Shown piece by piece: positions 23,943 to 26,546 of a DNA stretch of 64,000 bases (position 1 is its first letter; every line of letters begins with the position of its first letter). The DNA is from Pseudomonas laurylsulfativorans (GTDB taxonomy: Bacteria > Pseudomonadota > Gammaproteobacteria > Pseudomonadales > Pseudomonadaceae). A program made the position numbers and the translations under genes. Where the stretch lies: the NCBI RefSeq assembly GCF_002906155.1, contig NZ_MUJK01000002.1, positions 620,001 through 684,000 of the forward strand, given 5' to 3'. The notes under the pieces are model-generated. The model worked only from the letters and a program-made list of their open reading frames with translations. It ran no database searches and was not told where the DNA came from.

Positions 23943-24284
23943 ATGCTGCCACCGATGCTCCCCTTGAGTGCCGTGCCGATCACTTCACAAACCGATCCGA
24001 TCCGCCAGCGTCCGGATATTCCACCGGTGGTGCCGGTGCAGGAAAGCTCGAGTGAAAGCACCATTGACCTGCAAAAACGCAATCCTGAAGAGGACGGCTT
24101 AGTGCTGCGCGAGGAACAGCGCCGCAGGCAGGAGCAGGAACGCCGTCGCCACGAAGCAGACAATGATCCCGAGGCGCACCTGGCGATTCCCGGCGATGAG
24201 CTCAATGCCGACAACACCGTGCCAGTGGCGCCGCTGATGGAAGATCAGCCACGGCAGGGGCTGTGGGTCGATATCGAGATTTGA
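23943..24284 (+). CDS. Small proline/charge-rich protein of unknown function
   Basis: 113 aa from ATG 23943, chosen because AGGAGA stands about 8 nt upstream. The sequence is low-complexity: a proline-rich N-terminal half (MLPPMLPLSAVP ... IPPVVPVQ), then a highly charged Arg/Glu helix (REEQRRRQEQERRRHEAD) and an acidic tail ending GLWVDIEI. No signal peptide or known domain is recognised. It is followed at 100 bp by another small charged protein on the same strand. It is likely a real gene because of the ribosome site and codon use. Confidence 0.6.
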   Translation: MLPPMLPLSAVPITSQTDPIRQRPDIPPVVPVQESSSESTIDLQKRNPEEDGLVLREEQRRRQEQERRRHEADNDPEAHLAIPGDELNADNTVPVAPLMEDQPRQGLWVDIEI

Positions 24285-24383
24285 GCGCAGGCTGGTCAGC
24301 GCGGCCGTCAGGACGCATTATTGGCGCAGGGTCGCCGAACGCTACGGCGGCTGAATTTCATTTCAAGCGATGCACTGACCGCC

Positions 24384-24545
24384 ATGAGCCAAGACGACAA
24401 ACTGATTGACCTCAACGCTGAACGCGCCAAGCGTGTTCATGACCTCAATGACAAACGGCTCAATGAAGTTCGCCAGGCGTTCGAGCAGGCCATGCCACTG
24501 GGCAAACCAAAGAAAAAGCCGAAAAACAAACCGAAAAAGCGCTGA
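24384..24545 (+). CDS. Small basic protein of unknown function
   Basis: 53 aa from ATG 24384 (MSQDDKLIDLNAERAKRVHD). A predicted helix is followed by a lysine/proline tail (KPKKKPKNKPKKR) that could bind nucleic acid. No family is recognised. It is on the same strand as the 113-aa gene upstream and lies just before the Anr boxes of ccoM. Confidence 0.55.
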   Translation: MSQDDKLIDLNAERAKRVHDLNDKRLNEVRQAFEQAMPLGKPKKKPKNKPKKR

Positions 24546-24561
24546 AGTCCCCCCGCATACA

Positions 24562-24575
24562 TTGATGCGGGTCAA
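24562..24575 (+). promoter_or_regulatory. Anr (FNR-type) box, distal
   Basis: TTGATGCGGGTCAA, matching TTGAT-N4-(A/G)TCAA. It is 115 bp before the ccoM start. Confidence 0.75.
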
Positions 24576-24610
24576 ACTTTCCCCTTCCTCTTGCCCAGTC
24601 TCGGGCGACA

Positions 24611-24624
24611 TTGATCCCGGTCAA
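24611..24624 (+). promoter_or_regulatory. Anr (FNR-type) box, proximal
   Basis: TTGATCCCGGTCAA, a canonical Anr/FNR site 66 bp before the ccoM start, at a distance suited to activation near -40. It implies induction under low oxygen. Confidence 0.85.
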
Positions 24625-24689
24625 TATTCTCTCCTGCCCATTTGGTTAACTTAGCCCTATCGCAACAGGCCAAGTGCAGGAGACGCGTC

Positions 24690-24800
24690 ATGTTTTTCGA
24701 CAACGTGGTGATTGCCGGAGTGCTGACTGTCAGCCTCATGTTTGTGTTTTTTGCAGGGTTCGGACTTTTTATCTGGAAGGATTCGCAGAAGCGGAAATAA
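24690..24800 (+). CDS. ccoM: cbb3-type cytochrome oxidase small subunit CcoM
   Basis: 36-aa single-helix membrane protein. It begins MFFDNVVIAGVLTV, a hydrophobic span follows, and it ends in the cytoplasmic-looking FIWKDSQKRK. Length, MF-DNVV-AGV start and the F-IWKD tail agree with CcoM of Pseudomonas stutzeri, a small subunit that stabilises cbb3 oxidase. GCAGGAGA at 24676-24683 is the ribosome site. Two Anr boxes upstream and a strong terminator directly downstream make it a stand-alone oxygen-regulated gene, away from ccoNOQP. The match is from memory of the family; the regulatory context supports it. Confidence 0.85.
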   Translation: MFFDNVVIAGVLTVSLMFVFFAGFGLFIWKDSQKRK

Positions 24801-24841
24801 CCGTAGTTCTTTCTGGATGTAATGAGCACGCAAGGCATTTT

Positions 24842-24867
24842 GGGCAACTTCGGTTGCCCTTTTTTTT
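24842..24867 (+). terminator. Terminator of ccoM
   Basis: Stem GGGCAAC / GTTGCCC, TTCG tetraloop, then eight T: a textbook intrinsic terminator 41 bp after the ccoM stop. Confidence 0.93.
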
Positions 24868-24899
24868 GCCTGTAGAACTCTATCGATACACTTAAACCC

Positions 24900-24989
24900 T
24901 GTGGGAGCGAGCTTGCTCGCGATGAGGCCATAACATTCAGCATCTATATTGGCTGTAAGGCCGCTATCGCGAGCAAGCTCGCTCCCACA
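24900..24989. repeat. REP inverted pair
   Basis: Left arm TGTGGGAGCGAGCTTGCTCG and right arm GAGCAAGCTCGCTCCCACA, between the ccoM terminator and the Pit terminator. Confidence 0.9.
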
Positions 24990-25021
24990 ATGAGTTGTGG
25001 TGTGGCGAATATTTTGGCGAT

Positions 25022-25056
25022 AAAAAAGGCGCGGTCCTTGCGGAACGCGCCTTTTT
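25022..25056 (-). terminator. Terminator of the Pit gene
   Basis: AAAAAGGCGCG ... CGCGCCTTTTT with a short interior stem; A/T tracts lie on both sides. It is 15 bp past the Pit stop. Confidence 0.85.
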
Positions 25057-25070
25057 CGTTTGGCTGCTTA

Positions 25071-26546
25071 TCAGCTGCCAAGCGCCTTCGAAGCGAGCCA
25101 GAACAACCCGGCCGACAGGGCCACCGTGGCTGGCAGGGTCAGTACCCAGGCCAGCAGGATGGTTTTGACGGTGCCACCTTGCAGGCCGCTCTTGTTGGCG
25201 ACCATGGTGCCCGCCACGCCAGAGGACAGCACGTGGGTGGTGGAAACCGGCAGGCTGAAGATGTTCGCCATGCCGATCAGACTGGCTGTGGTGATCTGCG
25301 CCGACATGCCTTGGGAGTAAGTCATGCCTTGCTTGCCGATCTTCTCGCCAATGGTCAGGACCACGCGTTTCCAGCCGACCATGGTGCCCAGGCCCAAGGC
25401 CAGTGCAACCGCCAGGATCACCCAGAACGGGGCGTACTCAGTGGTGGTGGTCAGGTCTTTGCGCAGCTTGTCCAGGTCAGCCTTTTCACGGGCTCCGAGG
25501 GTTGGCAGCTTGCTGACTTTCTTCGCGGTGTCGTCCAGGCAGAGCAGGTAGCGACGGACTTCGATGCGGCTTTCCGCCGACAGCGAGTGGTAGTCTGCTA
25601 CACCTTTGAGGGTGCCGAGCAGGGCGCTGATGGTCGGTTCGGTCTGTTGCGGGTTGCAACGGAACTTCTCCGGCAGATCGCCTTCCACACTCTTGCCCAG
25701 GGCCAGGAACTCACCCAGGGTTTCGGAGTTGCGCTGATAGAACTGGCTCAGGTGCAGCGTGGCGTCGCGGGTGCGCTCGATCTGATAGGTCGTGCTGTTC
25801 AGGTCGAGGACGAACTGCGCCGGCACGATACCGATCAGGACCAGCATGATCAGGCCGATACCTTTCTGGCCATCGTTGGAGCCGTGCACGAAACTCACGG
25901 CCATGGCCGAGATCACCAGTACCAGGCGATTCCAGAACGGCGGGTGTTTCTTGTCGTCGATCTTGCGGCGCTGTTCCGGCGTCTTGTGCATCTTCGACAG
26001 CGGACGCCACCATTTAAGACCGATCAGGATCAGCGCGGCGATCAGGAAACCGGCCATTGGCGAGAACACAAGCGACATGCCGATATCGATCGCCTTCTGC
26101 CAGTTCACGCCATCGGCCAACGGAATTTCGTTGATCAAGGCGTTTGCCAGGCCCACGCCGAGGATCGAACCGATCAGCGTATGGGAGCTGGAGGCGGGGA
26201 TACCGAAGTACCAGGTGCCCAAGTTCCAGGTGATGGCTGCGGCGAGCAATGAGAACACCATCGCCAGACCATGGCCGGTGTTCACATTGATCAGCAGCTC
26301 TACCGGCAGCAGGTGGACAATGGCATAGGCCACGCCGACCCCGCCCAGCAGCACGCCGAGGAAGTTGAACACACCTGAGAAGAACACCGCCAGGTGAGGC
26401 GGCATGGCTTTGGTGTAGATAACGGTGGCCACCGCGTTAGCGGTGTCATGAAAGCCGTTGATGAACTCGAAGGCGAGGACAAAGGCCAGGGCGAGCAAGA
26501 GGCTCACAAGCACCCAAGCATCCAGTCCGCTGAATAAATCGATCAT
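25071..26546 (-). CDS. Inorganic phosphate transporter, PiT family
   Basis: 491 aa, similar in size to E. coli PitA (499). It has the two inverted Pit signatures: EFINGFHDTANAVATVIYT near the N-terminus and VSFVHGSNDGQKGIGL in the middle. A hydrophilic central region of about 150 aa lies before the last helices. It is a low-affinity, metal-phosphate:H+ symporter of the inner membrane. It is a single gene, with an AT-rich 5' region of 376 bp. Confidence 0.92.
   Translation of the reverse strand: MIDLFSGLDAWVLVSLLLALAFVLAFEFINGFHDTANAVATVIYTKAMPPHLAVFFSGVFNFLGVLLGGVGVAYAIVHLLPVELLINVNTGHGLAMVFSLLAAAITWNLGTWYFGIPASSSHTLIGSILGVGLANALINEIPLADGVNWQKAIDIGMSLVFSPMAGFLIAALILIGLKWWRPLSKMHKTPEQRRKIDDKKHPPFWNRLVLVISAMAVSFVHGSNDGQKGIGLIMLVLIGIVPAQFVLDLNSTTYQIERTRDATLHLSQFYQRNSETLGEFLALGKSVEGDLPEKFRCNPQQTEPTISALLGTLKGVADYHSLSAESRIEVRRYLLCLDDTAKKVSKLPTLGAREKADLDKLRKDLTTTTEYAPFWVILAVALALGLGTMVGWKRVVLTIGEKIGKQGMTYSQGMSAQITTASLIGMANIFSLPVSTTHVLSSGVAGTMVANKSGLQGGTVKTILLAWVLTLPATVALSAGLFWLASKALGS

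Follow-up and report, generated by a model that had tools for sequence, protein, structure and literature searches.

Is a small subunit of the cbb3-type cytochrome c oxidase merely induced together with its oxidase, or is it tuned more sharply than ccoNOQP? This question is raised by a short ORF preceded by two Anr/FNR-type boxes in the window, a stretch of 64,000 nucleotides from Pseudomonas laurylsulfativorans. From the answer one would learn whether the quantity of a high-affinity oxidase in low-oxygen niches can be set by one of its small subunits. The locus contains the following features.

24562..24575, + strand: distal Anr/FNR-type box TTGATGCGGGTCAA, exact match; centre at about -90.5 to -91 from the probable transcription start
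24611..24624, + strand: proximal Anr/FNR-type box TTGATCCCGGTCAA, exact match; centre at about -41.5
24647..24652, + strand: probable -10 hexamer TAACTT, 22 nt after the proximal box
24678..24682, + strand: Shine-Dalgarno sequence AGGAG, read directly; 7 nt before the ATG
24690..24800, + strand: ccoM, 36 aa, cbb3-type cytochrome c oxidase subunit; NF041600 69.5 bits, 5djq_N 3.2e-12
24842..24867, + strand: intrinsic terminator, stem GGGCAAC-TTCG-GTTGCCC (24842-24859) followed by T8, from a sequence scan

The ORF starts with the ATG at 24690, ends with the stop codon at 24798-24800 and codes for the 36-residue product MFFDNVVIAGVLTVSLMFVFFAGFGLFIWKDSQKRK. The NCBIfam equivalog model for CcoM, NF041600, matches it over model positions 1-34 of 34, at 69.5 bits against a cut-off of 40. 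At E values up to 1, the only PDB sequence that matches is chain N of 5djq (E 3.2e-12, residues 1-35). The label of this chain is "Putative uncharacterized protein," and the entry is presumably the P. stutzeri cbb3 oxidase. The first-pass annotation had taken the ORF for CcoM and had made this depend in part on homology in a profile search. Since the ORF passes the curated cut-off and matches a chain of a solved structure, the identification stands. A longer version of the ORF that starts from a TTG at 24642 (52 aa) was rejected, because the ATG has the Shine-Dalgarno sequence and the solved chain begins at the same methionine. A match to the Pfam family Cap15_TM (E 0.09, 13.9 bits) falls below the cut-off of 28.2 and was taken as a chance match to a helix. 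CcoM was reportedly described and named by Kohlstaedt et al. in mBio in 2016. A passage in PMC8267372 presents it as a single transmembrane subunit that some Pseudomonas cbb3 oxidases can contain, needed for the stability of the oxidase and not for its activity. The best explanation of the ORF is that it is ccoM, the gene of a single-helix cbb3 subunit, probably expressed as a single-gene transcript with a promoter and a terminator of its own.

For comparison, 200 ccoM loci were assembled, made up of 33 from searches of the genome itself, its family and its class, 80 from named records (79 Pseudomonas and 1 Pantoea), and further sets of 53 and 34. These loci are best-listed and hand-picked matches rather than a random draw, and near-duplicates are present; their 150-bp upstream stretches comprise 194 distinct sequences, 188 with a proximal box and 135 with a tandem. 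Two partial matches below the cut-off (L036 and L037) were dropped before counting, and several second or weak matches of the order search as well as one stronger match (G752) were left out of the 200. Among matches to TTGAYN4RTCAA with no more than one mismatch and a start at -130 to -55 relative to the ATG, the one nearest the 3' end was taken as the proximal box. A tandem was defined as a second box with at most one mismatch situated 48-52 bp upstream of the proximal box. The high information content of the boxes arises partly by construction, the loci being chosen for box matches. As relatedness inflates the raw counts, figures per genus were used alongside them.

The terminator that the first-pass annotation had assigned to ccoM is real and lies just beyond position 24800, where that annotation ended. 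A perfect-stem terminator within 180 bp past the ccoM stop codon is present at 144 of 194 distinct loci, compared with 3 of 194 for a control segment. By family, it is found at 136 of 144 loci of the window's family f1, which to judge from the titles of the 80 named records is presumably Pseudomonadaceae, and at 8 of 50 loci outside it.

The genome consists of 6.69 Mb in 30 contigs, and a profile search found one ccoM and two ccoN above the cut-offs. ccoM is on contig C22 (831,903 bases), at least 187 kb from either contig end, and both ccoN, the only two matches, are on C24. ccoM is indeed far from ccoNOQP, as had been proposed from the window alone. This is usual for the gene and not special to this genome: no CcoN match was found in the flanks of the 200 ccoM loci, which covered 0.1 to 6 kb on each side. 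Among the genomes compared, the exception is formed by three from family f187 (G669, G743 and G818; loci L186, L163 and L198), in which about 9-11 kb separates ccoM from a ccoN on one contig.

In the window, the neighbours of ccoM are rapA, two small ORFs and pitA. A functional link with the neighbours was considered and rejected, because outside f1 a RapA match was found in the flanks of ccoM only in genera g290, g322 and g341. Just upstream of ccoM there is a lysine-rich ORF of 74 residues (24321-24545), which is matched upstream of ccoM in 139 of the 149 f1 loci examined; no NCBIfam or Pfam family matches it at E values up to 1. Between ccoM and pitA, an inverted repeat of the type GTGGGAGCGAGCTTGCTCGCG (24900-24989) resembles, by eye, a Pseudomonas REP-like element.

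NF041600 matches 271 of 298 genomes in the window's family, 66 of 244 genomes and 34 of 112 genera in the order, and 5 of 369 genomes in the class draw, where the five include the own genome and two weak partial matches. Fourteen control genomes gave no NF041600 match in the family, order or class searches. Among genomes hand-picked from the listings, ccoN is above the cut-off in 30 of 31 that are ccoM-positive (E up to 0.001) and in 17 of 30 that are ccoM-negative (Fisher p 1.8e-4). This distribution fits a cbb3 accessory that some carriers of the oxidase do without. Two loci of genus g6 (L153 in G113 and L154 in G099) contain a diverged ccoM-like ORF of 41.8 and 38.9 bits, respectively, with an Anr-type box, downstream of matches to RapA and to the 74-residue ORF. 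G099 has no ccoN match, and the ccoM-like subunit may be orphaned there. Five other g6 genomes have neither a ccoM nor a ccoN match. One genome (G259, locus L131) contains a second ccoM-like match of 56.7 bits, 4.7 kb from the first, at G259:C1:2480170-2480259.

The two boxes upstream of ccoM, read as a pair of FNR/Anr sites in the first-pass annotation, are exact matches to TTGATN4GTCAA with starts 49 bp apart, and they are the only exact places in the window. With up to one mismatch allowed, the window contains 10 matches; shuffled sequences gave a mean of 5.09, and 4 of 100 reached 10, so this total is not remarkable. The genome has 37 distinct exact places (counted from 54 strand rows). 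In its 6.69 Mb there is one exact pair whose boxes are separated by 25-50 bp, against none for the reversed-pattern control, and a relaxed pair pattern finds the same single place at ccoM. Across 19 genomes of the same genus, including this one, the relaxed pair is found in 14, once in each and always upstream of ccoM, and in 5 it is absent.

A proximal box is present at 194 of the 200 loci; the six without it are L152, L183, L189, L194, L207 and L211. Outside the named-record set, 42 of 45 genera have it. At 192 of the 194 loci, the proximal box is followed after 21-22 nt by a hexamer whose second base is A and whose sixth is T (A2/T6), whereas offset pairs that exclude 21 and 22 give 0-16 loci. 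The distance of this -10-like hexamer would place the box at -41.5 or -40.5, and in the window the transcription start would be near 24659. Such a position is typical of the FNR-activated promoters of E. coli that are tabulated in PMC3688515. The hexamer of the window, TAACTT, is weak when compared with TATAAT, and a consensus scan of 24000-25400 found no sigma-70-type promoter, as expected of an activator-dependent promoter.

The genome encodes a protein that could act at these boxes. Anr, its only strong FNR-family match (324 bits), is on C24, where the nearer ccoN is about 9 kb away and an ORF resembling hemN by eye lies at a distance of about 90 bp. Of the 244 positions that align with E. 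coli FNR, 122 are identical, and Anr keeps the four cluster cysteines at FNR positions 20, 23, 29 and 122. The residues Ser-73, Gly-74 and Thr-118, whose functional roles are known in FNR, are kept as well; Phe-112 is replaced by Ser. For one ccoN, an exact Anr-type box (C24:389905-389918) lies 133 nt ahead of the ATG; for the other, the stretch examined has just a match with two mismatches. The presence of the box at nearly all loci, the fixed distance of the -10-like hexamer and an encoded Anr with four cysteines strongly imply that ccoM is under oxygen control by Anr. Both features of a class II Anr/FNR promoter, the box placement and the encoded protein, are found here, and class II activation from the proximal box is well supported, although we infer it from sequence.

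The distal box raises the question of what a second Anr site would add. It is present 48-52 bp upstream of the proximal box at 141 of the 194 loci, with the spacing distributed as 48 bp (1 locus), 49 (23), 50 (76), 51 (36) and 52 (5). A scan of all other spacings from 15 to 119 bp gave just six matches, at 25 bp (1), 32 bp (3), 62 bp (1) and 87 bp (1), and the narrow range is therefore not merely an effect of the counting window. The three loci with boxes 32 bp apart are L162, L164 and L169, in genera g379 and g332. Outside the named-record set, the tandem is present at one or more loci of 20 of the 45 genera, including 11 of 16 genera of f1, and it extends to families f3, f215 and f217. With each of 21 pools (20 genera plus the named loci) represented by a single locus, the standard deviation is 0.76 bp for the spacing, held down by the 48-52 bp limit, and 11.1 bp for the interval between box and ATG. 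The spacer between the boxes has drifted, and none of its columns exceeds 0.51 bits. The drifted spacer and the empty remainder of the 15-119 bp scan are the evidence that is free of selection. Judged from these patterns, the fixed-spacing pair looks functional.

The pair is not universal. A second box at 48-52 bp is lacking at 53 of the 194 loci, and the distal box is thus dispensable. Within f1, none of the loci examined from genera g5, g6, g7, g18 and g19 has the tandem, and in the window's own genus it is missing at 5 of the 16 loci outside the named-record set. Tandem boxes also occur elsewhere in two genomes of other families, two pairs in G667 (L223 and L224) and one in G670 (L225), with no convincing ccoM beside any of the three. 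By eye, the L223 pair precedes a universal-stress-protein-like ORF (L223:2141-2575) and the L224 pair an OmpW-like ORF (L224:2050-2868).

It is unlikely that the distal box feeds a second promoter, because an A2/T6 hexamer follows that box by 21-22 nt at only 14 of 141 loci. At 28 loci it follows by 20-21 nt, which leaves a small chance of a second transcription start at some loci. The 77 loci with such a hexamer 31-32 nt after the distal box owe it to a run into the proximal box.

The reading that we favor, with about even confidence, is that Anr activates from the proximal box and that the distal box co-activates. As oxygen falls, Anr would bind the proximal box at -41.5 and recruit RNA polymerase in the class II manner. 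A second Anr dimer on the distal box near -91 would then most likely co-activate, offering a second contact for the C-terminal domains of the α subunits (class III synergy), and ccoM would rise steeply with active Anr. At E. coli ansB, FNR at -41.5 and CRP at -91.5 co-activate in a class III arrangement. In the ansB sequence, the centres of an FNR-like match and a CRP-like match are 50 bp apart, although both matches are weak, with two mismatches for FNR and three for CRP, and another CRP match with three mismatches exists. Co-activation is preferred to repression from the distal box because the spacing at ccoM, 49 bp in the window with a mode of 50 bp in the 141 loci, agrees with the 50 bp of ansB rather than with the 53 bp of yfiD. 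The loci that do without a distal box count against co-activation. In addition, five turns of 10.5 bp amount to 52-53 bp, so that 50 bp is not in exact phase, and Phe-112 of FNR is a Ser in Anr.

The pair could instead act as a band-pass, as at E. coli yfiD/grcA. Anr at the proximal box would activate and the distal box, filling as oxygen vanishes, would repress, so that ccoM would peak at low but non-zero oxygen, where the cbb3 oxidase works. This was the first idea; once the E. coli sequences showed spacings of 53 bp at yfiD and 50 bp at ansB, it became the main rival, which we now consider somewhat unlikely. The yfiD layout is the same, with two FNR-type matches whose starts are 53 bp apart in MG1655, but a second box at 53 bp was found at no ccoM locus in the 15-119 bp scan. 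The distal box of ccoM is often the weaker one and ends in CAG at many loci, whereas both boxes of the window are exact. Gly-74, which FNR needs for repression, is kept in Anr. Tandem FNR promoters are repressed when the upstream site lies near -85 or -95; the distal site of ccoM, at -91, falls between these positions. For yfiD itself, parts of PMC10208419 report that activity is higher in microaerobiosis than when oxygen is wholly absent, and that deletion of the upstream FNR site strengthens anaerobic activity; by the scoring given in a portion of PMC3688515, the promoter has one FNR site. Mild support comes from P. stutzeri, where excerpts of PMC10433244 report that cbb3 subunits fall under oxygen limitation, CcoN and CcoP being lower while Anr rises. 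Repression in anoxia fits this pattern better than simple activation does, and the authors, in the same excerpts, tie the fall to a switch to denitrification. A broader form of the proposal, which we regard as distinctly unlikely, holds that the pair is an old layout common to the window's family and three others, that it lowers ccoM in anoxia through the distal box, and that the supply of CcoM, by limiting stable cbb3, would shut the oxidase down at the switch to other respiration.

It is improbable that only the proximal box matters and that the distal box is a relic of common ancestry and of closeness to the upstream gene. The loci that manage without a second box are consistent with this, as is the distal box of the window, which starts 17 bp past the end of the upstream ORF. 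However, second boxes at one narrow spacing are found across 20 genera from four families, and hardly any lie elsewhere in the scanned range, while the spacer has drifted and the distance from box to ATG varies widely. A distal box that serves another CRP/FNR regulator, such as the nitric-oxide-responsive Dnr, which recognises almost the same motif as Anr, would let the promoter integrate oxygen and nitric oxide, but it is very improbable, as besides Anr the FNR model finds two weak matches of about 40 bits, which on inspection by eye are one Vfr/CRP-like protein and one other member of the CRP family, and no Dnr was recognised among these.

The ccoM promoters, some with two sites and some with one, form a natural series for the study of synergy or repression by FNR-family proteins. 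In the parts of the literature on Anr and CcoM that were consulted, PMC10433244 included, no account of the ccoM promoter was met; the original CcoM paper could hold one.

When compared with known systems, the ORF is like CcoM of P. stutzeri in its 36 residues, its start, its helix and its place as a separate gene in a host that carries cbb3. The two differ in sequence only, and membership of the window's product in the complex is putative. The ccoN operon with the exact box uses the same motif as ccoM, but has a single exact box where ccoM has a pair. The yfiD/grcA promoter (FNR at -40.5 and -93.5) also has tandem FNR-type boxes, the proximal one of class II. It differs in its spacing of 53 bp, against 48-52 bp at ccoM, where repression from the upstream box is putative. 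The ansB promoter is alike in having a second CRP/FNR-family match 50 bp upstream of an FNR-like match, but two different proteins bind there, whereas both boxes of ccoM are of the Anr/FNR type. The gene, its location as a separate unit and its connection with oxygen all belong to a known type, and what is added here is the widely recurrent pair of Anr boxes at a fixed spacing.
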